From positions 1-64,000 of the forward strand of contig PABH01000055.1 of the NCBI GenBank assembly GCA_002702705.1: 64,000 nucleotides of DNA. The letters run 5' to 3'. Numbering within the stretch: the stretch's first letter is position 1; each line of letters opens with the position of its first letter. Positions 5,285-53,182 of this stretch are shown here, one piece after another. Made by a program: the position numbers and the translations under genes. This DNA is from Anaerolineaceae bacterium (GTDB taxonomy: Bacteria > Chloroflexota > Anaerolineae > Anaerolineales > Anaerolineaceae). The notes beneath the pieces are model-generated. The model did no database searches and was not told where the DNA came from. It saw only the letters and a program-made list of their open reading frames with translations.

Positions 5285-5506
5285 ATGATTAATAAAAATA
5301 ATATGCTTTATTATGAGATTGAAATTAAAAACAATTTAGGAGCGGATTGGGAGATTTGGTTTAATGATATGCAAATTTCACCCTTGAGAAATGGACACAC
5401 ATTAATTAAAGGCAATGTGAAAGATCAGCCTGCTTTGCGGGGAATTATGGAAAAGTTATGGAATTTAAATTGTAAAATAATTAAGGTGGAACTAAAACTT
5501 GGTTAG
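5285..5506 (+). CDS. Small conserved protein of unknown function (73 aa)
   Basis: ATG 5285 begins 23 nt after the hydrolase stop; in-frame codons upstream overlap the hydrolase and are less likely. The C-terminal half carries the pattern G-x-V-x-DQ-x-AL-x-GI-x(3)-L-x(2)-L, which I recall from small proteins encoded beside regulators in Chloroflexota and actinobacteria. No catalytic or metal motif is visible. It overlaps the etfA stop codon by 4 bases on the opposite strand (TTAG at 5503-5506), so the two transcripts converge with no space for a separate terminator. Function unknown. Confidence 0.65.
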   Translation: MINKNNMLYYEIEIKNNLGADWEIWFNDMQISPLRNGHTLIKGNVKDQPALRGIMEKLWNLNCKIIKVELKLG

Positions 5507-9280: not shown

Positions 9281-9298
9281 GCGTTGTTACCCTTTTGG

Positions 9299-11089: not shown

Positions 11090-11093
11090 AACG

Positions 11094-16850: not shown

Positions 16851-16871
16851 GAATAACCTTCGATTATTTTT

Positions 16872-18107: not shown

Positions 18108-18108
18108 A

Positions 18109-20425: not shown

Positions 20426-21626
20426 GATTTTTAATATTGGATAAGTTCGAAATTTGTTGAGCAAAATTCGCACCGATTTGATCCCAATTGTAGATGTTTT
20501 GAACAAGACTTAATGCGTTTTGTACAATTTTTTGGTTCAATTCTTCGTCTTCCATAAGTTGGATCACCGCTTTTGCAAATTTTTCAGGTGTATCCGCGAT
20601 TAATAAGTGAATCCCATTTTCAACCGATAATCCTTCAGCGCCTTTTGTTGTAGAAACTACAGCTGTACCTAACGCCATTGCCTCCAGTATTTTTAGACGA
20701 GTGCCTGCGCCCTGTCGTAAAGGAACAATACAAACAGAACTACTGGAGACGATGGGGCGGATATCGGGTAAATAGCCGGTTAACCTCACATTTTTTGTCA
20801 TTGGTAAATTTTCAATAGGCACCCCTTGAGTTTTTCCGGTGATATTAAGCTGTGTTCCTGGTAATTGATGAAGAATGCGTGGAAATATATCTTTTAAGAA
20901 AAAGAACATGGCGTCATAATTTGGATAATATGTCATGGCGCCGTTGTATATGATTTGTTTTTTTTGTTTGGCAATTGTTCCTGGTTTGTGCGTTTGAGTA
21001 TTCACCCCATTGGGGACATTCAAGACTTGTTGATCTGTGAAAGGGATATAGGTTTTTATTCGGTCCACATCTTTTTCTGATACAACGAGGCATCGATCAA
21101 AATGCCTGTAAATATTGCTTTCATAATTTTTAAACTTGATGTAGGCCATGTATCTTCTTAATTTTTGCAATAAACCTTGGGCTAATTGATAATTTTCATA
21201 AAGCATGAAAGCTAACAGATTATCAGCATCAACCACTTTTAATGGGATATCAGTTTTAAGCGCGTAGGGGGCAGTGACAAAGGTGAAAGCAAAAATTAGG
21301 TCGGGATTACGTTGTTTGGCTGTTTGTAATACCAATGCCTCAAAATCTTTGGAATAGCCTGCAAAAACCGTGCTTGGTTTTGTTGAAAAAAAGCCTAACA
21401 GGAGTTTTGTTTTCTGATAGGCGAAGGGTTGTTTCGGAAAGATTATGATTTCTTTGCAATATTTATGGATTTCCTCTTTCCATTCAGGTTGAATAGGGGC
21501 ATCCTCAAAAGAAATTAGGGTTATTTCATGGTTTTCTGCAAGCGCTTTAATCAAAAAAAAGGCTCGAATTTTGCTGCCCTGATTTAGGGGGTAGGGAAAC
21601 CAGGTTGAAAGAATCAAAATTTTCAT
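20418..21626 (-). CDS. Glycosyltransferase family 4
   Basis: 402 aa from ATG 21626, with a GGGGAT ribosome site. Starts MKILILSTWFPYPLNQGSKIR, the same N-terminal pattern as the other two GT4 of this group. C-terminal half: YNGAMTYYPNYDAM, LTGYLPDIRPIV, PLRQGAGTRLKILEAMALGTAVV. Retaining GT-B enzyme, cytoplasmic. It lies directly after the frameshifted sulfotransferase with a 1-nt gap and is the third member of a series alternating with GT2 genes. Acceptor unknown. Confidence 0.9.
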   Translation of the reverse strand: MKILILSTWFPYPLNQGSKIRAFFLIKALAENHEITLISFEDAPIQPEWKEEIHKYCKEIIIFPKQPFAYQKTKLLLGFFSTKPSTVFAGYSKDFEALVLQTAKQRNPDLIFAFTFVTAPYALKTDIPLKVVDADNLLAFMLYENYQLAQGLLQKLRRYMAYIKFKNYESNIYRHFDRCLVVSEKDVDRIKTYIPFTDQQVLNVPNGVNTQTHKPGTIAKQKKQIIYNGAMTYYPNYDAMFFFLKDIFPRILHQLPGTQLNITGKTQGVPIENLPMTKNVRLTGYLPDIRPIVSSSSVCIVPLRQGAGTRLKILEAMALGTAVVSTTKGAEGLSVENGIHLLIADTPEKFAKAVIQLMEDEELNQKIVQNALSLVQNIYNWDQIGANFAQQISNLSNIKNHA

Positions 21627-21627
21627 G

Positions 21628-22435
21628 TTAATTATCCCCAAAAAATTCTGCCCAGGGGGTATCCTTGAATTTTGTTTTCAGTTCGTCATAGTTGGTTATC
21701 ATTTCGGATAAATGTTTTGAGGATTGTTTATACGTTTGGGGTTTGACAGGATGAGGAGATACATTCAAAAAGGTTTGGATATCCTGGATAATCGGTTCGT
21801 AATTGTTAGCAAGATCTTCATAATGCACCTGTTTAATGAGATGACCTGCAAAGAATTGGTCATAATAATTTTCCCATTGACGGGTCTGTTCAAAATCTTT
21901 TAAACATTCGGCAGGATCCAAAAAAAATGGGACCATGGTCTTCTTTTTTACCGGAGGTATTTACCCAACTACCACTGCGATTTGCCTGAGCCCGGGATAA
22001 ATGTGTTTTCAGGATATTTTCTCTTTTTATGTGGATGATCCGAATTTCCGTGCTCTTTTTGAGAAAATCCCAGATTTGGTTATACGGTTCTGTTTGGGCA
22101 TGATAGTAAAATAATTTAAACCCAACTGCCTTGATCTGTGGTGGAAATTTTCGAAAAACAATTTTTTTCATGAACTCAATAGGTTTTTGCTGATAAATAT
22201 TTAAAACCTGTTCATTAACATAATATTGATCTGAATCCCAATCAATTTGATCCGGGTTCCTTAAGATTTCACCTGTGGTAAGAATTTCCGGATGGCTGCT
22301 TAATAAACCTCTTAAGAAATTAGAACCGGTGCGAGAGCGGCCTAAAATGATGAATTTTGTGTATTGGTGTGAACCCGGAAGTAAACCGGTGTTTTGTAAG
22401 AATATTTTCATTTGAAGTTTCTTTGTGTTAAACAT
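21628..22435 (-). pseudogene. Sulfotransferase, split by a frameshift in an 8-base homopolymer
   Basis: Two overlapping frames together make one sulfotransferase of ~268 aa. The 5' part (start 22435) has the PAPS-binding loop GRSRTGSNFLRGLL and a helix with IIHIKRENILK. The 3' part (21628-21936) has the usual tail FLDPAECLKDFEQTRQWENYYDQFF ... VHYEDLANNYEPII split between frames. The break is at eight A on the + strand (21920-21927); removing one base restores the frame. It could be a sequencing indel, a true null mutation, or transcriptional slippage on the run. Such enzymes move sulfate from PAPS to a sugar hydroxyl. A second, intact sulfotransferase is at 39019. Confidence 0.8.
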
Positions 22436-22448: not shown

Positions 22449-23363
22449 CTATAATGTTTGAGGGCGTTTTCCCCACCGTCTGAATATAAAATCTTTTAAG
22501 CCTTGCCATAGTGCGTTGCGATGGTCTTTTTTAAATCTCCATTTGGGTTTAATCGACCAGGCCAACAGTGTTCGCAAATAAAAGAAAATGGTTCTGATCC
22601 ACACTTTTAATGGAGCATGATGTTTTTGCAGCAGCAGTAGACGGTTGCGAACAGCATAATAGGTAACATTGGGACTGGGTTTGTACTCTCTCTGGACGCC
22701 TTTATGCCAGATTTTTGCCTGAGGAACAAATAAAACGTGCCAGCCCTGGTTTTTAATTCGGGTACACCATTCGGTTTCTTCCCAGTAATAAAAAAAACGT
22801 TGATCGATCAGTCCCGCCTGTAAAATGGCATCTCGTTTAACCATAATGGCACAACCGGATATCCAGTCGACATATACCCGGTTTGCATACTGTCCTTCAT
22901 CTTTTTCGTTAAATCCACGATGAACTGCATCCCACCGATTTTTGCTTAAAAAACCACCTGCTGATTGAATGACATCTGGTTCATCGGCATGGTAGACCAT
23001 CGGTCCAATGATTCCAGTATCTGGTTGATTCTGAACAGCTGCGATTAAATTGACCAAAGTATCAGGAGCAAGGAGAATATCCTCATTCATTACAAAGACC
23101 CAATCTGCATGTTGATCGAGGGCAGCCTGTATGCCCACATTATTATTTCCGGCATACCCCAGATTCTCCGTCAAGTTTATGATCTGAACCATTGGAAATT
23201 GTTCACTGATCGCTTCGTTAGATCCGTCCGTGGAGGCGTTATCCAAGACAATAACTCCCAAATTGGGATAGTGATTGTCAACCAAGGATTTCAAACAAGC
23301 CAGTGTATCTTCACGGCGGTTTGTATTTAAGATAACGGAGATAATTTTCGGAAATTCTTTCAT
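22449..23363 (-). CDS. Glycosyltransferase family 2
   Basis: 304 aa. KIISVILNTNRREDTLACL, VIVLDNASTDGS, ENLGYAGNNNVG and FVMNEDI mark the GT-A nucleotide-sugar domain; YYWEETEWCTRIKNQG is the later acceptor/catalytic region. It resembles rhamnosyltransferase-like GT2 enzymes, as the 18109 gene does, but the two are clearly different in sequence. It ends 13 nt before the sulfotransferase start and follows the epimerase by 7 nt. Confidence 0.9.
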   Translation of the reverse strand: MKEFPKIISVILNTNRREDTLACLKSLVDNHYPNLGVIVLDNASTDGSNEAISEQFPMVQIINLTENLGYAGNNNVGIQAALDQHADWVFVMNEDILLAPDTLVNLIAAVQNQPDTGIIGPMVYHADEPDVIQSAGGFLSKNRWDAVHRGFNEKDEGQYANRVYVDWISGCAIMVKRDAILQAGLIDQRFFYYWEETEWCTRIKNQGWHVLFVPQAKIWHKGVQREYKPSPNVTYYAVRNRLLLLQKHHAPLKVWIRTIFFYLRTLLAWSIKPKWRFKKDHRNALWQGLKDFIFRRWGKRPQTL

Positions 23364-23370: not shown

Positions 23371-24363
23371 TTATAACCAAGCCTTTGGAAAGTTCTTCAT
23401 AACTTCTATATTTTCAAACTTTGAACTGGACCGAGCACCATGTTGTTTCACCCAATTGGCCATAATCGATAAACCTTGTTCTAAACTATGAAGTGTGCGA
23501 TTTCCAAACACATCTCGTAGTTTTTGGTGCGATGAGTAAGCATCTTTTACTTCATTTCTGGCAGGCAAATATTTTATATCTGGGGAAACTTCCATCGCTT
23601 GGGCAACTGTGCTTGCTAATTTTTTTACTGAATATGGTATATCCGCGCCAATATTAAAAATTTGATTATATGCTTGTGGGTTTTGAATTGATTCTGCAAT
23701 GATAGGAGAAATATCTCGAATATAACTGAAGGCACGTGTTTGTTCGCCATCTCCAAAAATTGTCATCGGTAAACCTTGGATGATCTGGTTCATAAAAATT
23801 CCCACTACATTCCGGTATTTATCGCCAATATTTTGGCGTTCACCATATACATTATGTGGCCGGAAGATTACGTAATTAAGGTCGAACATTTCCTTGCACA
23901 CTTTTAATTCTTGTTCTACCGCGAATTTGGCGATACCATACGGGTCCTCCGGGTGGGGAACAGTTTCTTCCGTCATGGGTAAAACAGGACTGCTGCCATA
24001 AACTGCGATGGATGAGGTGAAAACAAAACATTTCACATTGAAGTTGATAGAAGCATTAATTAAATTAATACTGCCAATTAAATTATTATTGTAATTAAAA
24101 CGTTTGATAAAATGGCTCAAGCCTTCAGCAGCGTATGCAGCCAGATGAAAAACATAATCAAATTTATTTTCTTCAAATAGGGAATTGATAAATGGTACAT
24201 CATTGATACTGCCTTGAATGAAGGTTGCTTCTTCCGGAACGTTTTCCGAAAATCCACCACTCAAATCATCAATGACAGTAACGTCATAACCAAGTTTTAT
24301 CAGATCATCTGCAACGTGAGAGCCGATAAATCCGGCACCACCTGTGACCAAAGCTTTCTGCAT
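23371..24363 (-). CDS. NAD-dependent nucleotide-sugar epimerase/dehydratase (extended SDR)
   Basis: 330 aa. Rossmann motif GGAGFIG (8-14), HLAAYAAEG, catalytic S/Y/K with TSSIAVYG and Y142-x3-K146 (YGIAK), then FRPHNVYG and YIRDISP. It resembles UDP-glucose/GlcNAc 4-epimerases. It would supply an epimerised nucleotide sugar for the glycosyltransferases around it. GAGGTG precedes the ATG. The exact substrate is open. Confidence 0.88.
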   Translation of the reverse strand: MQKALVTGGAGFIGSHVADDLIKLGYDVTVIDDLSGGFSENVPEEATFIQGSINDVPFINSLFEENKFDYVFHLAAYAAEGLSHFIKRFNYNNNLIGSINLINASINFNVKCFVFTSSIAVYGSSPVLPMTEETVPHPEDPYGIAKFAVEQELKVCKEMFDLNYVIFRPHNVYGERQNIGDKYRNVVGIFMNQIIQGLPMTIFGDGEQTRAFSYIRDISPIIAESIQNPQAYNQIFNIGADIPYSVKKLASTVAQAMEVSPDIKYLPARNEVKDAYSSHQKLRDVFGNRTLHSLEQGLSIMANWVKQHGARSSSKFENIEVMKNFPKAWL

Positions 24364-24388: not shown

Positions 24389-25501
24389 TTACCCAAATAG
24401 ATACCCAACCCATTGTTTTAAGGGGGATCGTTTTGTGATCATTATTAATATAATAGGTATAAAAAGTCCGCAAACAATCAACAGTGGAAGGTATAAGAGT
24501 GGAAGCCCAAGAAGTTTGGGGACAAAACGATAAATTAATTTTGCTATTACGATCATTACCGCCGAATGCGCCAGATATATTCCAAAAGATAATGTGCCAA
24601 GTGATTGAATGGCTTTGATTTTTGTTAATTTTTTTAACTTAAAGGTTAAAAAGCTAATCAAAACACTAAACCCATACACTGTATCCAGGATGGTTTCACG
24701 CGGTGGGAACCAATCTCTACCGGAATGTGATAATAAATATTCCCATTCCAGCATTCCCAATGGAATCAGAAGGATAGCAAGAATTAAGAAAAAATAACGC
24801 CATGGGTGAAAACGTTCTTTAAATGCGGAAAAATTAAAAGCGATTACGATGCCCAAGGCGAACCAGAAAATATTGCCAGGGAAAAACCAGGAAGGTAAAA
24901 AGAAGCGGATCAGGTCTCTTCCAGGGATTGTCCAGTCCAAGATGAGGACGTATTGCCCAAAACGAACGAGCAGAAGGAAAAAACCAGTAATCAAAAGTAA
25001 AAAGAACGGTGATTTTTTAGCAGCTCGGGTAATGAGTGGAGATAAAAGATAAAATTGAATCAAAAGGGGAATAAAATAGAATGCCTCGGTTGTTTTCCCC
25101 AGTACGACCATTTCAATTCCTTGTGCAATCGATATTTTTTCTCCTTCAATCAATTTGATAACCAACATAATTAATGACCAAATCAAAAATGGAATTAATA
25201 AGGATTTGATTCTGGAAAAAATAATTAACCAGCTAGGCGCTGGTTGGTCTTTTGGGGTTGAAAAGGCAATAAAATATCCGGAAACAAATAAAAATGCCGG
25301 AATGGCAAAAATGACGAGCTGTTCAATAAACCGTAAAAGGTAATATTCAGGGCTACCCATTAAATCAAAATTAGGGACCGCCACATTTCTGAAACGATCT
25401 GTCCACCAGAACATTGCGATAAAGACCCATCCGGCTGCGTGATATAAAATGACCGAGGAGATGGATATACCATTTAGGGAGAGCAATTTTTTTGTTATCA
25501 A
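24389..25501 (-). CDS. Acyltransferase 3 family membrane protein (copy 1)
   Basis: 370 aa, about ten membrane helices. It starts at a TTG with AGAGGA 6 nt upstream, and the alignment with its neighbour confirms this start (ITKKLLSLNGISISSVILYH versus MTRKLLYLNGIAILTVILFH, compared in pieces). The catalytic His of this O-acyltransferase family is in LYHAAGW. C-terminal signature SFGIYLAHS. Family members transfer acyl groups to sugar hydroxyls at the membrane. It lies two genes downstream of the halogenase, in the same operon as a carrier protein that makes an unusual acyl group, so it is a candidate for placing that group on the glycan. Confidence 0.87.
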   Translation of the reverse strand: MITKKLLSLNGISISSVILYHAAGWVFIAMFWWTDRFRNVAVPNFDLMGSPEYYLLRFIEQLVIFAIPAFLFVSGYFIAFSTPKDQPAPSWLIIFSRIKSLLIPFLIWSLIMLVIKLIEGEKISIAQGIEMVVLGKTTEAFYFIPLLIQFYLLSPLITRAAKKSPFFLLLITGFFLLLVRFGQYVLILDWTIPGRDLIRFFLPSWFFPGNIFWFALGIVIAFNFSAFKERFHPWRYFFLILAILLIPLGMLEWEYLLSHSGRDWFPPRETILDTVYGFSVLISFLTFKLKKLTKIKAIQSLGTLSFGIYLAHSAVMIVIAKLIYRFVPKLLGLPLLYLPLLIVCGLFIPIILIMITKRSPLKQWVGYLFG

Positions 25502-25519: not shown

Positions 25520-26626
25520 TTAACCAAAAATATAAACATAGAATCGTTTCAATGGAGAACGTTTCACAACTGCCATCATAAATAATGGGATCAATAATCC
25601 TGTCAACGCAATGATTAGTGTAAAAGCGAGCTGGTAACTTAGCAAAGCCGGCAATACATGATAAATACCACGACCCACTATTTCCATTACCGGAATGTGA
25701 GAAAGGTAAATGCCAAAGGATAAAGCCCCAATTTGTTCCACCTTTTTTTGTTGAATTAATTTCTTTTTATCAAAGCTGAGCATTGTCATGATAAACGTGA
25801 AAGCATACAGGGCATCTACCAAAGTTTCTCTATGTTCAATAAATCGGAGACCGCTTAATCGGGTTAACCATTCCCACTCAAAAAAACCAACCAACCATAA
25901 CAGGATGGTAAAACCCAGCCACATCTTGGTTTTTCCTTCAAAAAGTACAGAAAATTGTTTGCGGTATAAGCTAAAAACAATGCCCAAACTAAACCAAAAT
26001 AATCGTGTTACAAAAAGCCATTTTGGTAAAAAAGTAATGAATATCTGTCCGGCTGCGCTTTCTGGTCTTAGGATATTAATATATTGGACACTGTGAAATA
26101 ATATTTGTAAGAGGGCGGTTCCCAAAAGCAAAACAGCCGGTTTCGATTTAGCCAAACGGATTAACCATGGTGCTAATAAATACATTTGGATCAGTAAGAT
26201 GACAAAGTAATACGCTGGGGTAATTGATCCGGTCAGTATTAGTTTCGTTGTTTCCCACACGCCAGGAAATTTTCCTTCTACAACCAACATGGCTACCTTG
26301 ATGAAACTCCATAAGAGGTAAGGAATTAGCAAGTATTTTAAACGCGTAAAAACAGTATGCCATTGAATTGTTCTTTCGTAGGCAGGAACTGTAAACGCAA
26401 TAAAAAATCCCGAAACAAATAAAAAGGAGGGGATTGAAAACACAGCGATTTGTTCAATCATTCGTAAACCAAAATAACCAATTTGGTTGGTATACATGGC
26501 TGCCCCTGGTGAGGCACCATACCGGTGTGCCCAAGAGAACATAGCCATTAATCCCCAGCCACCCGAATGGAATAAAATAACGGTTAAAATGGCAATCCCG
26601 TTTAAATAAAGTAATTTACGCGTCAT
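25520..26626 (-). CDS. Acyltransferase 3 family membrane protein (copy 2)
   Basis: 368 aa, a tandem paralog of the previous entry with the same topology, catalytic His in LFHSGGW and the end signature SFGIYLSHIP. AAGGGA precedes the ATG. Its ATG is 16 nt after the halogenase stop, so co-transcription is nearly certain. Two close but distinct copies suggest either two acceptor positions or an acyl-transfer relay. Donor could be acetyl-CoA as in most family members, or the thioester on the adjacent carrier protein (inference). Confidence 0.87.
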   Translation of the reverse strand: MTRKLLYLNGIAILTVILFHSGGWGLMAMFSWAHRYGASPGAAMYTNQIGYFGLRMIEQIAVFSIPSFLFVSGFFIAFTVPAYERTIQWHTVFTRLKYLLIPYLLWSFIKVAMLVVEGKFPGVWETTKLILTGSITPAYYFVILLIQMYLLAPWLIRLAKSKPAVLLLGTALLQILFHSVQYINILRPESAAGQIFITFLPKWLFVTRLFWFSLGIVFSLYRKQFSVLFEGKTKMWLGFTILLWLVGFFEWEWLTRLSGLRFIEHRETLVDALYAFTFIMTMLSFDKKKLIQQKKVEQIGALSFGIYLSHIPVMEIVGRGIYHVLPALLSYQLAFTLIIALTGLLIPLFMMAVVKRSPLKRFYVYIFG

Positions 26627-26641: not shown

Positions 26642-27940
26642 TCAATCTTGTGCCAGGATCGTCTCCGGAATTTCGTCAATGGGGATATTACTCAACTGGT
26701 TATGGAAGATGTGATTTTCCATTTTTTCTACTTTTTGAATGTAGTTTCGCATGGCTTCCAATACTTCCACTTCACCACGGTTAAATACTTCACCTTGTAA
26801 CAATCTAAGAATTTGCACTCGATATTTTTTCGACTGGATAAAGTGAGTAAACAAGGGCAGGAGTTTGTAATATAAGCGAATAAACTCATACCAAATATCC
26901 GCTCCGGATTTTAACGTTTCTTGATAGGGCATCAGGATTTCTTTTGAAAAATCATTTTTCTCAAATGCAGTTTTGATTACTTCAGAAGCGTATTTTGCGC
27001 TGTAAAGGGCAATGCTGACTCCGGAGGAAAAGATTGGATCCACAAATCGGGCAGCGTCCCCAATCATGACATATCCATCACCTACAAAGGATTTTTGGCT
27101 GTAACTGTAATCACCTTCGGTTTTAAATTCGTTCACACGGACAGCATCTTTTAATGCATCACTTAATCCAAGATTACTTTTAACGTAATGATTAAAATAT
27201 TCTTCAAAATTGCCCTTAAACGTGCGGAAAACTTCCCTTTCAACAACAATCCCAACAGAGGTGATTTCATCGGTAATCGGTATTTGCCACGCCCAACCAC
27301 GTTTAACTGGTAAAAAATAAATATGAATAAAGTCTTTTGTATGGTCATTTTGGCTGCGTTGAACATTCTTAAACCAGGCATGGACTGCATATTGATTAAA
27401 GATAGGATCACTTTGTTTGATATTAAGTTGTCTACCGAGCACGGTACCACGCCCACTGGCATCTACAACCATTTTTGCAGGGATATCAATTAACTGCCCC
27501 GCAAATTTCACTTGAACACCAACCGCTTGTTGTGCATCATTAAATAACACCTTTTGGACATTGACCCCTTGTACAACTTCGGACCCAAGTTCCTGGGCGT
27601 GTTTTAATAAATGTAAATCCAATTTGCTGCGATCAACATGATAGGTGTATGGCTGGTTTATACCCGGTTGCTGAAATTCATCAAAATTAATATAAAACTC
27701 TTTTCCGCCTGGTTCATGCCAGGATGCACCATATTTTTTTGGAAAACCAGCTTTTTCCATAAATGGCAAAAAGCCAATTTCTTCAAAGATTCTGGTGGTA
27801 GAGGTTACCATCGATTCGCCCACGTGCGCTCTGGGGTGCATTTCTTTTTCTAAGATTAAATTTTTAATACCCATTTTGGATAAATAACATCCCATTGCCG
27901 ATCCAGCTGGGCCGCCGCCAATAATAATTACATCCGTCAT
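26642..27940 (-). CDS. Flavin-dependent halogenase, PltA-like
   Basis: 432 aa. The FAD Rossmann motif GGGPAG is at residues 8-13. The halogenase diagnostic WxWxIP is present as WAWQIP (216-221). A lysine pair in GFPKKYG (68-69) sits where the halogenases keep their catalytic Lys. GDAARFVDPIFSSGVS (294-309) is the block shared by carrier-protein-dependent halogenases. From memory it resembles PltA, which dichlorinates pyrrolyl-S-PCP, along its length. Related geranylgeranyl-reductase-like enzymes lack WxWxIP. FADH2 must come from a flavin reductase, not seen in the window. Carrier protein, adenylation enzyme and dehydrogenase lie directly upstream. Halide choice and position cannot be read. 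Cytoplasmic. Confidence 0.82.
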   Translation of the reverse strand: MTDVIIIGGGPAGSAMGCYLSKMGIKNLILEKEMHPRAHVGESMVTSTTRIFEEIGFLPFMEKAGFPKKYGASWHEPGGKEFYINFDEFQQPGINQPYTYHVDRSKLDLHLLKHAQELGSEVVQGVNVQKVLFNDAQQAVGVQVKFAGQLIDIPAKMVVDASGRGTVLGRQLNIKQSDPIFNQYAVHAWFKNVQRSQNDHTKDFIHIYFLPVKRGWAWQIPITDEITSVGIVVEREVFRTFKGNFEEYFNHYVKSNLGLSDALKDAVRVNEFKTEGDYSYSQKSFVGDGYVMIGDAARFVDPIFSSGVSIALYSAKYASEVIKTAFEKNDFSKEILMPYQETLKSGADIWYEFIRLYYKLLPLFTHFIQSKKYRVQILRLLQGEVFNRGEVEVLEAMRNYIQKVEKMENHIFHNQLSNIPIDEIPETILAQD

Positions 27941-27960
27941 AGGAGTACCTTCTTAACAGT

Positions 27961-28200
27961 TTATTTTTTTGATTGGATAAAATCATTGATGGCAGATATT
28001 GTCATGAAATTTTCAAGGACAACATCTTCATCATCCACTTCGATATCAAATGTTTCTTCCAGGAAGCTTACCAATTGCAAAATTCCTAGAGAATCAAGAA
28101 TACCTTCGCTGAGCAGATCATCGTCCGGTTTAATTTCGGATTTTCGACCTTTGGCTAATTCTGTTTGCACATAATTGATTAATACTTGATTTGTGTCCAT
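27961..28200 (-). CDS. Acyl/peptidyl carrier protein, PltL-like role
   Basis: 79 aa. The phosphopantetheine attachment site is LDSLG with Ser37, followed by ILQLVSFLEETFDIEV, typical of four-helix carrier proteins. AAGGAG precedes the ATG. It lies between the adenylation enzyme and the halogenase, so it should hold the aminoacyl/pyrrolyl thioester that the dehydrogenase and halogenase work on. No phosphopantetheinyl transferase is in the window; a housekeeping one must activate it. Confidence 0.88.
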   Translation of the reverse strand: MDTNQVLINYVQTELAKGRKSEIKPDDDLLSEGILDSLGILQLVSFLEETFDIEVDDEDVVLENFMTISAINDFIQSKK

Positions 28201-28220
28201 TTTTTATACTCCTTTAGCAA

Positions 28221-29801
28221 TTAAATAAGATTTTTTGTAAGATCTTGAAGTGCTCTTCGGTCGATCTTCCCAGTTGAAGTTCGGGGAAAATCATCCAGCA
28301 AATAAATTTTGCTTGGAATGGCGTAATTTGGTAGATTTTCGTTCAACAAAGAATAGAGATGGTCTGTGGTCAGCCCACTATCTGCCCGCGGAATGACAGC
28401 AGCTTCGATTAAATGACTGCCATCTCCATCAGAAACTGGAAAAACGGCAGCTTCTTGTATATCAGCGTGGGATAAAATGGTGGTTTCAATTTCGTCCAAT
28501 TCCACTCGATATCCCCGTGTTTTGATCTGGCGGTCTTTTCTGCCTAAAAATCGAAAATTTCCATCCGGTCGTAGTTGAACCAGATCACCAGTGCGGTAGA
28601 AAATATCTAGGAACTGATCAAAAGAATTTCGTTTATAAAATCCTTTTTCAGTCAAATCGGGTCTACCCCAATAACCGAGCATGACCACACCACCTCGAAT
28701 ATAAAGTTCACCCACCTCTCCATCCGCCACAACCTGTCCTTCTTCATCAACAACGAGAGCTTCTATATTGTGGCAGGCTTTTCCGATTGGAATTAAATCA
28801 TTTTGGTCCTCAGGAATCGGTTCAACATTGTAAAAAGTGCATACATTTGTTTCTGTTGGCCCATATAAATTGCTGAATGAAGCGTGGCTAATGATCTTCA
28901 TAAGTTCTCTCAAATGTTTGGTGGGAAAAGGTTCCCCAGCAAATAAAACCCAACGTAGGGATGAGAGATTCTTTTCGCTTAATTTACCGCGCTGCATTAA
29001 TTGAATTAGAGCAAAGGGGACAGAATACCATACCGTTATTTTTTCGTCTTGAATCCATTTTGATAAGTTGGCAGGAAATTTCGTTAAGGCTTCTGGTATC
29101 AGAACTGTTGTCGCTCCAACCAAAGAACCGGCATAAAAATCAAAGGTGGATAAATCAAAATGAAGTGGTGCATGGCTAGAGAGCACATCATTTGGCGTTA
29201 ATTGATACGTTTCGGCTGCCCATTTTGCAAAACTAAGCCCACTGCGATGGGTATGGACGATGCCTTTTGGAACCCCAGTCGAACCGGATGTATATAAGAT
29301 ATAAGCAATATCCTGTTCTGTCCCATGAAACGGATTCGCTAATTCAGAGGGACTATTAAAAACAGTATCCCATGAGATAACTGGTGTTTTGTTGGACTCA
29401 ATCGAATCAATACCAATGACGGCGGATAAAGAAAGATTTGGTTCAATTTCTTCTAAAACCGCTTTTTTGCGATCATGACAAACCACAATATTGATTTCGC
29501 AATTTTTGATGATATATTCAATCCGGTTTGGCGGGGCATAAGGATCCAGTGGAACATAAGCAGCACCGGCTGCCATGATACCGTAAAGGGCTACTGCAGA
29601 GTAGATGTTTTTATACATAAAAATACCTACACGGTCGCCTCTTTTTACTCCATGGGTTTGTAAAACAAAGGCCAGTTGTTGGGATTTTTCAAAAAGTTCA
29701 GCATAGGATAAGGACTCTTTATTAAAACGTACTGCTTCCTTGTCTGGCGTGGTTTCTGCAAAAAGCTCGACACTCTGGTGTAACATGTAAATATTTTTCA
29801 T
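28221..29801 (-). CDS. Freestanding adenylation enzyme, probable L-prolyl-carrier-protein ligase
   Basis: 526 aa from ATG 29801, which has AAGGAG 5 nt upstream; a GTG two codons earlier overlaps that site. Core motifs: ILYTSGSTGVPKG, NLYGPTETN, YRTGD, and C-terminal RTSTGKIDRRAL with the catalytic Lys. Mapping ten pocket positions on GrsA (FDLSTF, VWYSVP, VLFAGE, LYGPTETNVC) reads D-L-F-Y-L-A-L-V-C-K. I recall this from type II prolyl ligases such as PltF, RedM and CloN4. It would adenylate L-proline and load the adjacent carrier protein. Gene order dehydrogenase-ligase-carrier-halogenase supports this. Confidence 0.82.
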   Translation of the reverse strand: MKNIYMLHQSVELFAETTPDKEAVRFNKESLSYAELFEKSQQLAFVLQTHGVKRGDRVGIFMYKNIYSAVALYGIMAAGAAYVPLDPYAPPNRIEYIIKNCEINIVVCHDRKKAVLEEIEPNLSLSAVIGIDSIESNKTPVISWDTVFNSPSELANPFHGTEQDIAYILYTSGSTGVPKGIVHTHRSGLSFAKWAAETYQLTPNDVLSSHAPLHFDLSTFDFYAGSLVGATTVLIPEALTKFPANLSKWIQDEKITVWYSVPFALIQLMQRGKLSEKNLSSLRWVLFAGEPFPTKHLRELMKIISHASFSNLYGPTETNVCTFYNVEPIPEDQNDLIPIGKACHNIEALVVDEEGQVVADGEVGELYIRGGVVMLGYWGRPDLTEKGFYKRNSFDQFLDIFYRTGDLVQLRPDGNFRFLGRKDRQIKTRGYRVELDEIETTILSHADIQEAAVFPVSDGDGSHLIEAAVIPRADSGLTTDHLYSLLNENLPNYAIPSKIYLLDDFPRTSTGKIDRRALQDLTKNLI

Positions 29802-29810
29802 GATCACTCC

Positions 29811-30956
29811 TTATAAGCCCAACATCCGAGTGATAATATTTCGTTGAATGTCTGAAGTGCCGGAGTAAATTAAACCACCAACGGAATCCCGAAGGGCATA
29901 CTCAATTCCAAAATCACTAATATATCCATTAGCACCGTGAATACGAACGGCGTCCAAACTGGATTGGACATAACATTCGCTGATATACAACTTGGCAATG
30001 GCGGCTTCCATCACAGCAGATTTCCCCGTCGATTTCAACCAGGCTACTTTGTATAACATCATTCGGGCTGTTTCAATACGTACTTTCATATCAGCAATAC
30101 GGTTTGAAACTGACTGGAAATTTCCAATCGGCTGATTAAACTGTTTTCGCTCTTTGGCGTAAGAAATACTTTGTTCCAATTGATATTCCATCGCTCCTAG
30201 ACTGGAAGCCAGAATACAGCTTCTTTCCCACTCCATCGAGCCGTTAAACATCTGTGCACCAGATCCTTCAGGCCCAAGTCGATTTTCTTCTGGGATGCGG
30301 CAATTCGTTAGTTTAATGGAACCCATCGGAATGGTTTTTAACCCCATTTTTTCAATGACCGGACTTATCTCAAGGCCTGGTGTCCCTTTTTCAACAATAA
30401 AACCTGTAACCCCCCACATGCCTCGTTTGGGATTAACAGTTGCAAAAACGAGAAACACATCCGCAATTGGAGCATTTGTGATGTAGGTTTTTTCGCCATT
30501 TAAGATATACGATGCCCCATCTTTTTCAGCAGTCGTTCTTAAACTATATGCATCAGAACCAGATTCCGGTTCAGACATACAGTGAGCAGCGATTATTTCA
30601 CCACGCATCATTGGTTGGAGATAGGTTTTTTTTTGTTTTTCTGTGCCGTGAGAAAGCATTGGCATTTGCACACTCCACATTTGAGCATTCATCCCAAAAA
30701 TGAGAGCACTGTCACGGTAGGCGTAACCCAAAGTCTCCATCACCAACATGGTTTCCAATATGTCTGCACCACCACCACCAAGTTCCTTTGGCATGGGTAG
30801 GCCTAACAAACCATAATCAGCACATTTTTTCCAGTCCGAACGGGAAAATTCGCCTGTTTTATCTCTTTTGATAAAATCGTGACTTAATTCGTTTTCTGCA
30901 AAATTAAGCACTTCTTGTTTTTTGTTAAGTTGTTCAGAAGTCCAGGAAAAGTCCAT
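29811..30956 (-). CDS. Acyl-CoA dehydrogenase family flavoenzyme, probable prolyl-S-carrier dehydrogenase (PltE-like)
   Basis: 381 aa. Family motifs: HCMSEPESGSDA, GEKTYITNAPIADVF, SMEWERSCILASSLGAME, QPIGNFQSVSNRIADMK and FGIEYALRDSVGG followed by YSGTSDIQ. The blocks NAPIAD, SMxWER and LDAVRIHGxxG recall PltE, which oxidises prolyl-S-PCP by four electrons to pyrrolyl-S-PCP. In ordinary acyl-CoA dehydrogenases these blocks differ more. It is the first gene of the cassette, 10 nt before the ligase. Its reoxidation partner could be the ETF module at 5503-9280 or oxygen. The specific substrate is inferred from neighbours. Confidence 0.82.
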   Translation of the reverse strand: MDFSWTSEQLNKKQEVLNFAENELSHDFIKRDKTGEFSRSDWKKCADYGLLGLPMPKELGGGGADILETMLVMETLGYAYRDSALIFGMNAQMWSVQMPMLSHGTEKQKKTYLQPMMRGEIIAAHCMSEPESGSDAYSLRTTAEKDGASYILNGEKTYITNAPIADVFLVFATVNPKRGMWGVTGFIVEKGTPGLEISPVIEKMGLKTIPMGSIKLTNCRIPEENRLGPEGSGAQMFNGSMEWERSCILASSLGAMEYQLEQSISYAKERKQFNQPIGNFQSVSNRIADMKVRIETARMMLYKVAWLKSTGKSAVMEAAIAKLYISECYVQSSLDAVRIHGANGYISDFGIEYALRDSVGGLIYSGTSDIQRNIITRMLGL

Positions 30957-30978: not shown

Positions 30979-32175
30979 TTACACATTTGATAATATTTTT
31001 TCTAATTTTTGGGTTGAGTGTTCCCATGTCCATTTTTCTAACACATACTGTCTTGCAGTCTGGCTAAATTTTTCTCTTGTGATTTTTTGTTGGATTAGTA
31101 CTAAAATCTTTTCGGAAATTTCTATTGGGTCGCGGTTAACCAAAAATCCGGTTTCTCCGTGTAAGATCGTTTCCATCAAACCACCTTCATTAACCCCAAT
31201 GACCGGTGTTCCACATGCCATTGACTCAATCGGTACCAACCCAAATGGTTCTCTGATAGGGGTATAAATTGTAAATAATGCGCGGTTATATAAAGAAACC
31301 AATGCTTCATCACTAATACCAGAATGAAATTCCGTGGTTACATGATGCTTTTCGGCAAGAGATTGAATATATTGATATTCCGGTTGATTTGAAAAATTGC
31401 TTGCAATTTTAAATATTGGCCTGATATTTTCCGGTATTAATCCCAGAGATTGAATGATTAAATCAAATCCTTTTAACGGTGTTAATGATCCAACGGAAAG
31501 AACAAAATTTTCTTCAACTTCCAGTGAGGGTTTAAAAAAGTTTATATCTACACCTGGGTAACAAACACTAGGATCAACGGAATATATCTTCTTAACGGCA
31601 CCACGATTAAAAATAGAATTGACTAGAACTGATTTTGCAGCGGACACATTTTTTCGATCATTATTTTTAAGAGTCATATAAAATATGGCTTTCATTGGAT
31701 CGATTTTATCAACCAGTCTGCGCAATCCGCCCTCATCTTGATCGTATGGTCGGGGTGGCATTGTTTCATATAAAATCCGTAAAGGTTCATGACAGTAAAA
31801 TACTGTCGGCATATCGTGTAGATGCTGTAACAAAGAAGGTGCATTTTGAAATTGACATGGTTGTACCAGCACCGAGTCAAATTTTTCCAGACGGATGTCA
31901 TTTGCAATCTGTTTTTCTAACCGGTTTAATTTATACAAATCAAAGGTTCGGATGATCTGGTTCAATCTGCCAAATGGTGACTTAAACAAAACACCGGGCG
32001 TAAAAGGATATATGTGATACGCCGCAGCAAAAGGACGAAGATCACAAAAATCATGATTTGCGCTGGAGGTCGTATATATATGGATTTCGTGATGGTCGTG
32101 AAGTCGTTTTGTAAATTCATACAGTAAACGTTTTGCGCCACCGGAAGGTAAATTGTGATATATCGCGATTTTCAT
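30979..32175 (-). CDS. Glycosyltransferase family 4
   Basis: 398 aa. GGAKRLLYEF near the N-terminus is the acceptor-side glycine loop; the donor side shows VGSLTPLKGFDLII, TPIREPFGLVPIESMACGTPVIGVNEGG, the classic E-x7-E GT4 motif. Retaining enzyme, cytoplasmic. It lies 22 nt upstream of the pyrrole-type cassette in the transcription direction. It is of the more typical PimA/WcaL-like GT4 group, unlike the trio at 14350-21626. Confidence 0.9.
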   Translation of the reverse strand: MKIAIYHNLPSGGAKRLLYEFTKRLHDHHEIHIYTTSSANHDFCDLRPFAAAYHIYPFTPGVLFKSPFGRLNQIIRTFDLYKLNRLEKQIANDIRLEKFDSVLVQPCQFQNAPSLLQHLHDMPTVFYCHEPLRILYETMPPRPYDQDEGGLRRLVDKIDPMKAIFYMTLKNNDRKNVSAAKSVLVNSIFNRGAVKKIYSVDPSVCYPGVDINFFKPSLEVEENFVLSVGSLTPLKGFDLIIQSLGLIPENIRPIFKIASNFSNQPEYQYIQSLAEKHHVTTEFHSGISDEALVSLYNRALFTIYTPIREPFGLVPIESMACGTPVIGVNEGGLMETILHGETGFLVNRDPIEISEKILVLIQQKITREKFSQTARQYVLEKWTWEHSTQKLEKILSNV

Positions 32176-32225: not shown

Positions 32226-33758
32226 TTAGGAAATCTGAGCTTGGAAATATTTTTTCGCTGGCTCAACATATTCAGGTAAACTCCATTCACTTTCCAGGTC
32301 ATCTTGAATATGGTGTTCGTTAACCAATTTCCCTTGATTAAAGCGGCGGATGATGGGGTGGAGATATGCGGCTTGATCTCCTTTTTCAGGATCAGGATCA
32401 CGCTCTACATTAAATGGGTCACCTTCAAAGTGGCCATATTCCAAACTCACGGTGTAATAATGAGGATATTGTGTGATGAAACTATGGGGAACATGGTCTT
32501 TTCGGATATCTTTATAATTTTTGGCAAGTTTGTTTTCATCATCAATGACGATAACGTCACACAAGAAACCAGGTTGTAGAAAAATTCCTGGTCGATTATT
32601 TACACTGTCCAAAACAGCCTGTAAGACATTTTCACTTTTTACTGGAAATGTGTCATGTTCCCATTCCAGATTATGGTATTTTTCATCAAGGATTAGAGAT
32701 AATGAACGAATATTATGACGGAACCCATGAATGAAGCCGGACATGGTTTTTTTATAATCACAGGCTTGCATAATGGTTCCGATAAAATAAAGATCTTTAA
32801 TATTAACAGATTCCCATTCCGTGGTTTGTTTTGGAAAACGATTATTTATAGCCAGTTCTGGTTTACAGTTTTCGGCGAATAGACTGTCATCAAACATAAA
32901 ACCAGTACAGGAAATGACATGGTCATAAAATACCCGACGGGTTTGGCCTTTTGCATGACTGTATGCGATATCGACAACATATTTTCCATCGACCATATCT
33001 ATATTGGTAATACTGCCATCAATAACAGTGTTTTGTGACTTAAGTTGGTAGGTATCTAAAAAATTATTATTGACAGCGCGCAAATTTCCCACAAAATGGG
33101 TTTGCCATGCAAATTTAACCGAATTTGGGCTGATGACATGAATGGCGGCGGCATGTTCAGTGATGTGATCTGCCGTCTCAAACGCAGAATTTCCTTTTCC
33201 GATGATTAATACACGTTTATTCGCGTAGTCTTCTTTGTTCAATGAATGGGTGTAGTACGTTTTGACTAAATCAAAACCGGGAATATCGGGTTTGTATTCT
33301 TTGGTAACACCTGTGCCAACAATTAATATCTGGCTGGTATAAGAGTTGTGATTCTGATCGGTTAACTCAAAACCATCTTCTGTACGTCTAATTTGGTTTA
33401 TTTCGGTATCAAATTGGATCTTTAAATGATAATGATTCGCGTAATCCTGAAGATAATTAACTAAAAATTTCGGATGGGGAAAATAAGATTTGGTATAGTT
33501 TTTGAATGAAAAATCTGGATCATCATTAATTAAAGAATTCCAATCCCAACGAAAATTTGCATCGGGATTATTTTTACCGGTATAAACCTTGTTGATGGAT
33601 ATTAATTTTCGGTGTCGTGGGTTGTTTTGGAAAAAATTACCAGGAACTTCACCACGGTCCAATACCAGGTAGTCCCGGCCTTTTTTTTCTAAAAAATATG
33701 CCAGTTGTAAACCCGCTGGACCTGCACCGATAATAATATATTGTGCATGTTTTTTCAT
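32226..33758 (-). CDS. FAD/NAD(P)-dependent oxidoreductase, flavin-monooxygenase (FOXRED2)-like
   Basis: 510 aa. Two dinucleotide-binding motifs: GAGPAG (11-16) for FAD and GKGNSAFETADH (187-198) for NAD(P)H, with ISCTGFMFDDSL between later strands. The arrangement is of class B flavin monooxygenases; the overall feel is of FOXRED2-type proteins (from memory). The C-terminal ~110 residues extend beyond the core. The FMO fingerprint FxGxxxHxxxY/F is not obvious. It is located upstream of the halogenase cassette with one GT4 in between, so it may modify the same acyl group or a sugar. It is not a flavin reductase in the small-protein sense. Function unknown. Confidence 0.75.
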   Translation of the reverse strand: MKKHAQYIIIGAGPAGLQLAYFLEKKGRDYLVLDRGEVPGNFFQNNPRHRKLISINKVYTGKNNPDANFRWDWNSLINDDPDFSFKNYTKSYFPHPKFLVNYLQDYANHYHLKIQFDTEINQIRRTEDGFELTDQNHNSYTSQILIVGTGVTKEYKPDIPGFDLVKTYYTHSLNKEDYANKRVLIIGKGNSAFETADHITEHAAAIHVISPNSVKFAWQTHFVGNLRAVNNNFLDTYQLKSQNTVIDGSITNIDMVDGKYVVDIAYSHAKGQTRRVFYDHVISCTGFMFDDSLFAENCKPELAINNRFPKQTTEWESVNIKDLYFIGTIMQACDYKKTMSGFIHGFRHNIRSLSLILDEKYHNLEWEHDTFPVKSENVLQAVLDSVNNRPGIFLQPGFLCDVIVIDDENKLAKNYKDIRKDHVPHSFITQYPHYYTVSLEYGHFEGDPFNVERDPDPEKGDQAAYLHPIIRRFNQGKLVNEHHIQDDLESEWSLPEYVEPAKKYFQAQIS

Positions 33759-33842: not shown

Positions 33843-34937
33843 TTAGGGTTTTAACTGAAATGGGCTGTTTTGGGGCAAGTATTTTTGTTTTTTCTGTCTT
33901 TTTGACAAAACAAACTTCAATAATTTTTTATTCATAAAAAATAATAGTGAAATAAACAGGGTTTTGGGATCCCATTTATTGAATCGTAACGATAAAATCA
34001 GCCAATGTTTTAAAAAGGGGTTTTTGATATTTTCTACAACAGCTTGGGTAACCATCAAACGATACAATTTTGCCTGTTGGTTTCGCGTTAAGTTTTGGAA
34101 AGAATTGGATTGTGTTATCTGATTTTGGAACGATGGGTTGTCGAAAATCAAATTTACCAATAGATCATAAAAAACATAAAATTGTGTATCCAGCGAACAT
34201 TCTGTAAAACGAGGATTTTTAATATGATTTTCTCTACATACGGCCAGTGATCTGCGTCTTTTTTCCGAACTGGTACTAACTGTAATATTTGTTTGATGAA
34301 CCCTATATCGCACACCATAAAAATCCAAATAACCGAACTTACCAATTTCAGCAAAGCGGGTTAAAAAATCCCAATCTGGTCCAATGACGATGCGGCTATC
34401 AAAAATCAATCGATGGTTTTGGATTTTCTCCAAATTCAATAAAGTACAGGTTGGGGGTCCAAATACATCCGAAGCTCGTACGACTTGTTCAAAAATATCC
34501 CCTGTGAATGGACCACGACGGTGTTTTGAAAGTGGTTCGAGCAGATTACCATTGGAATCAATATAACGTCCATCCGTATAAACTGCATCGAAAGTTTCAT
34601 TTTGTTCCAAAAAAGAGAGGGTTAGATGCAAAAATTCCGGCTCAAATAAATCATCAGAATCTAAAAATGCGACCCATTTCCCATTCATTTTTGACAAAGC
34701 ATGGTTTCTTGCGACAGCTTCTCCTTGATTTTTTTGGGTGAATTTTTTTATACGGGGGTCAATGTATTCTGAAATGATTTTTTCTGTTTGATCGGTAGAG
34801 CCATCATTCACAATGATCAGTTCCCAATTTTGATATGTTTGGGCAAGAATGCTATCAATTGATTCCTGTATGTAGTTTTCAGCGTTGTATGCAGGCATCA
34901 TGATGGAGATGAGTGGGGTATTTTTTAGTGTTCTCAT
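33843..34937 (-). CDS. Glycosyltransferase family 2
   Basis: 364 aa. PLISIMMPAYNAENYI, IIVNDGSTDQT, NQGEAVARNHAL and the metal-binding LDSDD (DXD-type) make a clear GT-A domain in the first ~220 residues. The C-terminal ~140 residues are basic and helical (KKLLKFVLSKRQKKQK), perhaps membrane-peripheral. It overlaps the upstream GT4 by 4 nt. Acceptor unknown. Confidence 0.92.
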   Translation of the reverse strand: MRTLKNTPLISIMMPAYNAENYIQESIDSILAQTYQNWELIIVNDGSTDQTEKIISEYIDPRIKKFTQKNQGEAVARNHALSKMNGKWVAFLDSDDLFEPEFLHLTLSFLEQNETFDAVYTDGRYIDSNGNLLEPLSKHRRGPFTGDIFEQVVRASDVFGPPTCTLLNLEKIQNHRLIFDSRIVIGPDWDFLTRFAEIGKFGYLDFYGVRYRVHQTNITVSTSSEKRRRSLAVCRENHIKNPRFTECSLDTQFYVFYDLLVNLIFDNPSFQNQITQSNSFQNLTRNQQAKLYRLMVTQAVVENIKNPFLKHWLILSLRFNKWDPKTLFISLLFFMNKKLLKFVLSKRQKKQKYLPQNSPFQLKP

Positions 34938-36166
34938 ATTTTTAATTGTTTTCTTAATACTTGATCGATATGTTGTCCAGTCATTTTCCAGGTATGCTTT
35001 TGTTCTGCTTCATGGCGGGCATTTTGACCAAGTTTTTGCCTTTTTTGAGGATCATTCAGTAAATGAGATAATGCTTGGATTAAAACTTCCTCATCACAAG
35101 GTGGAATAATTAATCCGGTTTGATCATGAGTGAGGGTTTTTGGATTGTCATTTTCACCCGATGCGATGATTGCCAATCCTGCTGCTTTATAATCAAACAG
35201 CTTTAATCCGGAATATTCAATCCAATTACAATATGGGGAAACCCCAATATCCGCATTTGCTAAAATGGGAGCATATTCTTGGGCCGGAATTTGACCTGTA
35301 AAGGTGACAAACTGCTCCAAACCCAGTTGGCTAACTAAAGATTTGGCTTCATTAAACCCAGTCCCAGCACCAATCAAAATCAATTCGCTGTTTGGAAAAT
35401 TTGGTTTGCAGCGTGCAAATGCAGTGATAAGGGTTTTTGTGCCATGCCAAGGGTAAAAACCGCCTAAATAGACTATTTTTACCGTATTTATGGAATCTGG
35501 ATCTGTTTGTGAAAAATTTTTGATATCTTTTTGTTCCAACAAACTGATTAAGTCCGTTCCGTTTTCGATTACTTCAATTTTTTGAGAGGGGATATTCCAT
35601 TTAGTAATTAAATTTGTTCTCCACCCATTTCCGGATGCAATTAAAAAATCGGCTTTATTTAAAGTATACCGAAGCAAAAAGGTGGAAAGGATTCTCTGTA
35701 AACCTTTTGGGTCCATTTGTTTTGCTTCCAGATCGTGTAGGGGGTCGCCGTTGTATTCAATAACCAACGGGATTCTTAATTGTTGGGCGGCAAAAACACT
35801 GCCATATCCCATCCATGAGAGTCTCTCAAACAGCAGGTCAGCACCATCAGCATGGTTTATACATGCCTGTGCAAAACGACGGCTTTCAAAATATCCAGCG
35901 TATGGGAGGTGCAATATGGTTTGGATTTTTCGTAAAACTCGTTCTACAAATCGAGGAAACCCTGTTTCCAATTGAGGTGTTTTGATCTCTTTATATTCTA
36001 TTAAATCTGAGGAGAGGTATATTCTATGGTTGATTCCGATGATAAATTTTACGGAGTGTCCGAGTGCTTCAAGTTCTTTAATCACATGATGGACATGGAT
36101 TGCGGGGCCATCGAAAGGCGGCTTTCGCATATCCGAGCCATTTTGAAGCAAGTAGACAATTTTCAC
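34934..36166 (-). CDS. Glycosyltransferase family 4
   Basis: 410 aa. N-terminal FDGPAIHVHHVIKELEALGH, then VIENGTDLISL, YLGGFYPWHGTKTLI, LIGAGTGFNEAK, and SPYCNWIEYSGLKLFDYKAAGLAIIA in the place of the E-x7-E motif. Retaining GT-B type. 4-nt overlaps on both sides show tight translational coupling with the GT2 and the next GT4. Confidence 0.9.
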   Translation of the reverse strand: MKIVYLLQNGSDMRKPPFDGPAIHVHHVIKELEALGHSVKFIIGINHRIYLSSDLIEYKEIKTPQLETGFPRFVERVLRKIQTILHLPYAGYFESRRFAQACINHADGADLLFERLSWMGYGSVFAAQQLRIPLVIEYNGDPLHDLEAKQMDPKGLQRILSTFLLRYTLNKADFLIASGNGWRTNLITKWNIPSQKIEVIENGTDLISLLEQKDIKNFSQTDPDSINTVKIVYLGGFYPWHGTKTLITAFARCKPNFPNSELILIGAGTGFNEAKSLVSQLGLEQFVTFTGQIPAQEYAPILANADIGVSPYCNWIEYSGLKLFDYKAAGLAIIASGENDNPKTLTHDQTGLIIPPCDEEVLIQALSHLLNDPQKRQKLGQNARHEAEQKHTWKMTGQHIDQVLRKQLKI

Positions 36167-43713: not shown

Positions 43714-43724
43714 AGAATAACCTT

Positions 43725-50205: not shown

Positions 50206-50214
50206 AAGCAGCCT

Positions 50215-51204: not shown

Positions 51205-51216
51205 TATGAGTCCTTT

Positions 51217-53178: not shown

Positions 53179-53182
53179 AAGT

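Follow-up and report, generated by a model that had tools for sequence, protein, structure and literature searches.

An L-proline-type halopyrrole cassette beside arginine-less AT3 proteins in an Anaerolineaceae surface-polysaccharide locus: a candidate carrier-fed glycan acylation system

Contig PABH01000055.1 of an Anaerolineaceae bacterium (assembly GCA_002702705.1) was analyzed over positions 1-64,000 of the forward strand, referred to below as the window. At 26642-30956 it carries a cassette of four genes of the kind that turn L-proline into a halogenated pyrrole on a carrier protein, followed directly by two genes for AT3-fold membrane acyltransferases and surrounded by a surface-polysaccharide locus. 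As judged from the sequences, the cassette would be a thiotemplated acylation system for the surface glycan, with the AT3 proteins moving a pyrrolyl or halopyrrolyl group straight from the carrier; a probability of about two in three is assigned to this reading. A filamentous lineage of Anaerolineae appears to have redeployed the enzymes of halopyrrole antibiotics for the decoration of its sugar coat, the AT3 proteins probably being fed by the carrier. Conservation among relatives supports such a (halo)pyrrole coat, in which the AT3 proteins would transfer the presumably halogenated group to a glycan acceptor as an ester or an amide.

Comparative evidence was drawn from 101 genomes (this genome, G000, and 100 relatives) and from 68 halogenase loci obtained by a scan of named genomes; genomes and loci are cited by G and L numbers. 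The 68 loci were searched with seeds for AT3, glycosyltransferase, ketosynthase (KS), and condensation (C) domains.

The initial annotation had reported four consecutive minus-strand genes whose products are a flavoenzyme of the acyl-CoA-dehydrogenase type, a freestanding adenylation enzyme, a carrier, and a WxWxIP halogenase, and these were recovered exactly at 26642-30956 with family matches far above chance. They are transcribed in the order acyl-CoA dehydrogenase (ACAD), adenylation enzyme, carrier, and halogenase, with gaps of 3, 20, and 20 bases between them. The proposed PltE-PltF-PltL-PltA enzyme types were borne out as well, PltA and an L-prolyl-peptidyl carrier protein dehydrogenase (5zw0) being among the best solved-structure matches. 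The carrier protein is free-standing and retains the serine of its DSL motif (S37), as expected of a thiotemplated pathway. The conversion of L-proline to pyrrolyl-S-carrier and then to halopyrrolyl-S-carrier is known from thiotemplated pathways, as described in the available parts of two papers (PMC10849742, PMC6424973). The cassette is classed as a thiotemplated halopyrrole pathway and would be expected to carry out this chemistry.

The adenylation enzyme scored 387.6 bits against a cut-off of 317.4 with the NCBIfam AA-adenyl-dom model, and 302 bits, below the cut-off of 476, with the DltA model. Among its PDB matches, the free-standing L-proline ligase 6o6e (329 bits), which we take to be PigI, ranked behind multidomain nonribosomal peptide synthetase (NRPS) chains. 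The pocket code, first located by eye from motifs and then by alignment, is DLFYLALVCK, one residue apart from DLLYLALVCK in 6o6e; preference for another acid, which would have spoken against the first interpretation, is therefore not indicated by the code. Fifteen glycan-linked adenylation enzymes were compared (window, L050, L053, L054, L055, L057, L058, L060, L061, L063, L066, L069, L076, L100, and L114), matches with fewer than 200 aligned residues, such as that of L064, having been left out. The full code was found in 11 of them and was identical over the covered part in L050, L060, and L066; in the L057 enzyme, a single Leu is replaced by Ile. Among the open-access papers searched, none was found for the code DLLYLALV, or for PltF together with PigI.

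For the cassette ACAD, the best PDB matches were the prolyl-acyl carrier protein (ACP) dehydrogenase 4irn (E 4e-129), 6cxt, presumably Bmp3, and 5zw0, presumably PltE. Its predicted catalytic base, Glu244, aligns with the glutamate of 5zw0 (6af6 has Ala at the same position), and the serine of its YSGT loop presumably sits where acyl-CoA dehydrogenases usually have their base. This signature was present in all 11 full-length cassette ACADs seen. With NCBIfam equivalog models the enzyme stayed below the cut-offs (PigA, 450.3 of 500 bits; RedW, 394.1 of 650 bits). These scores were dropped as proof of a prolyl dehydrogenase, since a second dehydrogenase of the window, termed ACADb, reached nearly equal values (414.4 and 383), and reliance was moved to the Glu244/YSGT signature and the solved-structure matches.

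ACADb lies at the border of the locus and tracks it across genomes; at 64% identity or more it was found in five of the 101 (G000, G002, G003, G005, and G010). Four of these have the halogenase; the fifth, G003, has an assembly break at the cassette site. The gene adjoins an Fe-S oxidoreductase gene in G000, G002, G003, and G005, with genes for the electron transfer flavoprotein (ETF) coming next in the window and in G003. Both dehydrogenases are probably of prolyl type, and the ETF and Fe-S proteins would take up their electrons; alternatively, ACADb may be a standard acyl-CoA dehydrogenase associated with the ETF genes. A PigA-like ACAD (53% identity) was also seen beside an adenylation enzyme (45.6%) in L051 (G070:C75), in a genome without a PltA-type halogenase at the threshold used.

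The halogenase matched ChlB4, PltA, and 5buk, which we take to be Mpy16, as its three best PDB entries (E 1e-122 to 3e-120). A geranylgeranyl-reductase model gave a weaker score of 147.9 bits, below its cut-off of 158.8. Placement among non-halogenating reductases, named by the initial annotation as a reason to abandon its proposal, is thus not suggested by these matches. The protein has the GxGxxG motif, a lysine in KxG taken as catalytic, and WxWxIP; K69 was likened to K87 of PltM by motif only, following the available part of PMC6424973. PltA-type halogenases of Verrucomicrobiota and Planctomycetota were also encountered (L062, L067, L072, L074, L090, L116, and L118), in loci without AT3 or glycosyltransferase seed matches; a proline-type adenylation enzyme is present in L067, L074, and L116.

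The cassette had been described as lying among glycosyltransferases and two acyltransferase-3 proteins, and genes of GT2, GT4, and PMT type do surround it, with two PF01757 proteins directly after it (Table 1). All open reading frames (ORFs) of at least 150 aa from 5503 to 45996 lie on the minus strand. The 47 ORFs of at least 150 aa in the window gave no ketosynthase, condensation, or MBOAT match (Pfam, E<=0.001), in agreement with the claim that no polyketide synthase (PKS) or NRPS assembly line follows the cassette. Over the 20 kb of contig that follow, judged by ORF length alone, no ORF is longer than 624 aa.

A PltA-type halogenase at 58% identity or more was found in 8 of the 101 genomes (G000, G002, G005, G010, G065, G078, G079, and G083). 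Nearly the whole locus is kept in order in G002 (Chloroflexi bacterium 44-23) and G005 (HGW-Chloroflexi-10), and G010 (Bellilinea caldifistulae GOMI-1) has most of the glycan genes together with the carrier, ligase, halogenase, and three AT3 genes. Cassette and glycan locus are physically linked in these three genomes; in G083 (Anaerolineales SJ338) the linkage is seen on two contigs, each with cassette genes next to flanking genes. In this last genome, one contig holds ligase, ACAD, a Na_H_Exchanger-type antiporter, three glycosyltransferases, and an AsnB-like gene, a second carrier, halogenase, and AT3, and a third AT3, glycosyltransferase, Wzy-like, and Wzz-like genes. In G079 the cassette, with two halogenases and an AT3, and the glycosyltransferase, AsnB, and sulfotransferase genes are on separate contigs.

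The order AsnB, glycosyltransferases, cassette, AT3 genes, epimerase, and GT2 recurs in whole or in part in records of Anaerolineaceae, Caldilineaceae, and Ardenticatenaceae. The linkage to glycan genes, whose loss in relatives would have counted against the first proposal, is thus retained, with the same glycosyltransferases, AT3 genes, epimerase, and partly the sulfotransferase in order. With glycosyltransferase and export or polymerisation genes conserved alongside the cassette, the surroundings are, by their predicted functions, a surface-polysaccharide locus. A cation/proton antiporter gene also recurs within the pyrrole cassette or adjacent to it, in L023 (3443-4732) and L050 (2819-4222), both Na_H_Exchanger, and in L054, L055, and L057.

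Glycosyltransferase 36163 occurs in 8 of the 101 genomes, six of them with the halogenase. Of the other two, G003 is broken off on both sides of the cassette site, and G089 has the glycosyltransferase at 41% identity, with no halogenase found. G003, whose halogenase match is only a 32% paralogue, was considered as a halogenase-less counter-example and dropped, since the expected site falls between the ends of its contigs C174 and C253, which makes the absence uninformative.

AT3 seed matches were obtained in 13 of the 68 loci; nine of these also matched glycosyltransferase seeds, and the remaining four come from contigs 4.6-12.1 kb long. KS or C matches occurred in 15 loci, none of which has an AT3 match; the KS and C seeds were one sequence each, both from the window's genome, so that more distant domains may have escaped detection, and many other loci matched neither KS/C nor AT3 seeds. 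A halogenase tree, built by a quick method and with 19 open forks, took in 47 of the 68 loci (21 being left out), four second copies, and the window. It was used solely for the split between an Actinomycetota-type and a Chloroflexota-centred group, and its label 'glycan_AT3' also covers L076 and L100, where the contig stops too early for an AT3 to be seen.

AT3 proteins carry a DxxRx10H motif, and in the available part of PMC12423673 its essential arginine is proposed to act at the 3'-phosphate of acyl-CoA. In the cassette AT3 proteins (ACYLTRANSFERASES) this arginine is replaced by asparagine in 27 of 27 sequences, with the histidine retained. The set comprises the two proteins of the window and 25 from the 68 loci, two of the latter being read upstream of the called start. 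In the RxxR motif of helix 3 the first arginine is kept, and the second is never arginine in the rows that cover it (Lys in two). Control AT3 proteins outside cassettes, from this genome and relatives, have the DxxR arginine in 19 of 21 cases. The controls came from 30 further loci (the genome's own C1 and best-scoring matches), from which one without a usable ORF, three with a wrong ORF, and five cassette members were dropped. Since the 3'-phosphate separates CoA from the phosphopantetheine arm of a carrier, loss of the arginine is what would be expected with a carrier donor. In L055, L058, and L061, AT3 genes have carrier genes as neighbours, on one side or on both.

The predicted model of the AT3 protein at 25520 had a pLDDT of 90.4 and a pTM of 0.90. 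Foldseek gave no match for it in the PDB at E<=0.001. By VIA-align, acetyl-CoA-bound HGSNAT was matched with Z 16.8 (rmsd 5.0 over 303 residues), the next unrelated row being at 5.3. Pfam score and TmAT fold place the cassette proteins in the AT3 family, and by their motifs they are divergent AT3-fold proteins that lack the arginine of the canonical, acyl-CoA-dependent DxxRx10H type.

In the proposed mechanism, the adenylation enzyme would load L-proline onto the carrier protein, and the ACAD would oxidise the prolyl group to pyrrolyl-2-carboxyl-S-carrier, the electrons probably passing to the products of the locus-terminal ETF and Fe-S genes. The FADH2-dependent halogenase would, by homology, chlorinate or brominate the ring on the carrier. 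The two membrane AT3 proteins would then take over the (halo)pyrrolyl group, most likely straight from the phosphopantetheine arm of the carrier, which would enter the AT3 pore on its cytoplasmic side. Outside the membrane, they would pass it to a hydroxyl or amine of a lipid-linked or exported polysaccharide, presumably made by the neighbouring glycosyltransferases.

In the Dlt system (DltA-DltC-DltB-DltD), a ligase, a carrier, and a membrane acyltransferase acylate a surface polymer with D-Ala. The present system would as a whole function in the manner of Dlt without being counted as a member: it would have halopyrrole in place of D-Ala, the AT3 fold in place of MBOAT, and two extra tailoring enzymes. 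The stronger claim that it is a Dlt-like system assembled from other parts, whose arginine-less AT3 proteins are carrier-dependent transmembrane acyltransferases coating an Anaerolineae glycan with halogenated pyrrole, is given slightly less than an even chance.

Parts of the scheme have counterparts elsewhere. Pyoluteorin biosynthesis (Plt) uses the same four enzyme types, whereas the AT3-bearing loci show no PKS match and the product is proposed for a glycan. The Bmp bromopyrrole and marinopyrrole pathways share the oxidation of the prolyl-carrier followed by halogenation on the carrier; their products are released or assembled as small molecules. OafB-type AT3/TmAT O-acetylases share the Pfam family, the Rx10H histidine, and the HGSNAT-like fold with the cassette AT3 proteins, which differ in having Asn for the essential DxxR arginine and in having lost the second arginine of RxxR. 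In clorobiocin and coumermycin, the pyrrole reportedly reaches the sugar of a small antibiotic by a transfer route without an AT3 protein, whereas the window has a surface-polymer locus, a halogenase, and AT3 proteins. These two antibiotics resemble the proposal in that a carrier-bound pyrrole-2-carboxyl group is put on a sugar (CloN3 in the available part of PMC10849742). Among the open-access papers searched, judged by title and opening of the abstract, none dealt with a surface glycan bearing pyrrole-2-carboxyl or halopyrrole groups.

Several observations weigh against a carrier-fed glycan acylation system and are considered here with the alternatives they concern. A review of AT3 proteins, in its available part, gives acyl-CoA and not ACP as the physiological donor (PMC9558356), which makes the carrier-donor step a bold one. 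Two AT3 proteins outside such cassettes likewise lack the arginine (Met in L149, Ser in L163), and a third AT3 of the window (49159), near another ligase/carrier pair, retains it, as does its L052 relative; loss of the arginine is therefore not proof of a carrier donor. The donors named in the review and the two cassette-free proteins would fit an alternative with the same chemistry and the same glycan, in which transthiolation yields pyrrolyl-CoA for the AT3 proteins, or a sugar nucleotide is acylated in the cytoplasm by a soluble transferase and the AT3 proteins acetylate. This alternative is considered rather unlikely, as nothing but AT3, carrier, and further halogenase genes separates halogenase from epimerase in the nine loci that show both, and the arginine proposed to hold the 3'-phosphate is absent from the 27 cassette AT3 proteins. 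The proteins of L149/L170 and L163/L171, beside AsnB-like genes, make up a further group of AT3 proteins without the arginine (Met and Ser).

Contigs C13 and C44 of the same genome encode an NRPS and a PKS, respectively, both unlinked to the cassette, and either might use the pyrrole. The cassette might then feed a small molecule, such as a halopyrrole metabolite, a product of these unlinked systems, or an oligosaccharide antibiotic with a halopyrrole ester, for which everninomicin-like logic is the model. Some Actinomycetota loci whose halogenases are related do have KS matches, and an oligosaccharide antibiotic would likewise need glycosyltransferases and an exporter. In contrast, none of the 13 AT3-bearing loci matched the single KS and C seeds, and the cassette keeps its conserved place in a locus of polymer type, which encodes Wzz/kinase-like, Wzy_C, and Wzm/Wzt proteins. 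A small-molecule product is regarded as quite unlikely.

FADH2-dependent halogenases require O2, and Bellilinea is described as anaerobic. COX1 was present in five of five genomes searched, Bellilinea included, so that O2 may be available. With O2 supply uncertain in these hosts, the acyl group might be a pyrrole-2-carboxyl or prolyl group without halogen, the halogenase being inactive or acting on another ring; related loci such as L059, L062, L065, and L073 have PltA-type halogenases without ACAD or adenylation matches in the DNA covered. Against this stand the invariance of the motif residues K69, G71, W216, W218, I220, and P221 in nine aligned halogenases and the tandem PltA-type copies in L057, L061, L064, and L066, the latter suggesting that halogenation is used; a halogen-free group is held to be distinctly unlikely.

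Two points of gene content also run counter to the carrier-fed reading. The in-cassette ACAD is absent from the Bellilinea loci; there, ACADb lies on another contig and is the only ACAD of prolyl type found, and it could supply the pyrrole. In G065 and G078 the halogenase is present without glycosyltransferase 36163 at the threshold used.

Compared with the initial annotation, the arginine loss in the AT3 proteins, the second dehydrogenase with ETF genes (5503-10447), and a second ligase/carrier pair (53183-54978) are new. If a halopyrrole coat exists, an organohalogen would be a structural part of the cell surface, rather than a secreted antibiotic, in a widespread and mostly uncultured group, and could be one natural origin of the organically bound chlorine or bromine of biomass. 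An AT3 protein would moreover be coupled to a carrier of its own, contrary to the acyl-CoA view in the available part of the review (PMC9558356), and there would be a portable route for putting aromatic groups on glycans. The named strain with the locus, B. caldifistulae GOMI-1, makes the reading directly testable.

Table 1. Genes of the cassette, the neighbouring AT3 proteins, and the polysaccharide locus, with the basis of each assignment.
Feature	Position	Strand	Basis and remarks
Prolyl-carrier dehydrogenase (ACAD; PltE/Bmp3/PigA-like), 381 aa	29811-30956	-	Profile and PDB matches, alignment; Glu244, YSGT loop Ser
Free-standing adenylation enzyme, L-proline type code, 528 aa	28221-29807	-	NCBIfam, PDB, pocket alignment; DLFYLALVCK
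Carrier protein (PCP), 79 aa	27961-28200	-	DSL serine motif, profile; GILDSLG, Ser37
FADH2-dependent halogenase, PltA type, 432 aa	26642-27940	-	Motifs, PDB, profiles; GGGPAG, GWAWQIP, K69-x-G
AT3-fold membrane acyltransferase, proposed pyrrolyl transferase	25520-26626	-	PF01757 92.6 bits, cut-off 31; Asn9 for DxxR Arg, His20 kept
Second AT3, same type	24389-25501	-	PF01757 97.9 bits, cut-off 31; Asn10, His21
NAD-dependent sugar epimerase/dehydratase	23371-24363	-	Conserved beside AT3 genes
GT2 glycosyltransferase	22449-23363	-	Conserved in locus
Sulfotransferase-like gene	21628-22435	-	Weak sub-cut-off Pfam match; frameshift-split into two overlapping ORFs in different frames
GT4 glycosyltransferase	20418-21641	-	
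O-antigen ligase/polymerase-type membrane protein	19034-20506	-	Wzy_C 67.4 bits, cut-off 31.7
GT2 18109-19029, GT4 16872-18107, PMT_2-type 15552-16850, GT4 14350-15582	14350-19029	-	
Wzz/tyrosine-kinase-like chain-length protein	12643-14238	-	
Second prolyl-dehydrogenase-like ACAD (ACADb)	9299-10447	-	Same Glu/YSGT signature; best solved match 4irn
ETF alpha, ETF beta, Fe-S/CCG oxidoreductase	5503-9280	-	Pfam; likely electron acceptor chain for the ACADs
GT4 glycosyltransferase	30979-32175	-	Directly upstream of cassette
Accessory flavoprotein-monooxygenase-like gene	32226-33758	-	Similar in L058, L061; not at this place in L019, L021
GT2 33843-34937, GT4 34934-36166, GT4 36163-37158	33843-37158	-	
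AsnB-like amidotransferase	37168-39018	-	
Sulfotransferase-like protein	39019-39771	-	
Wzt (with Wzt_C domain) and Wzm polysaccharide ABC exporter	42496-44519	-	

The split sulfotransferase-like gene is unsplit in L018, L022, and L166, where it forms a single ORF of 270-299 aa. A further module at 49159-54978 consists of an AMP ligase (53183-54712, exosortase-associated type, below cut-off), an 82-aa carrier (54730-54978), AsnB (51217), an NAD-synthase-like gene (50215), and the arginine-keeping AT3 (49159), and is possibly another thiotemplated glycan modification. The window also contains genes for a HAD phosphatase (10517-11137), a SIS-domain protein (61488-62636), and a GHMP kinase (62662-63636), a set that we take to suggest a GDP-heptose-like sugar in the glycan. 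ARAGORN placed a tRNA-Cys at 2884-2980 on the minus strand, inside a plus-strand ORF (1165-3918, MalT/LuxR-like), and a Mutator-family transposase gene lies at 97-984, near the start of the window.

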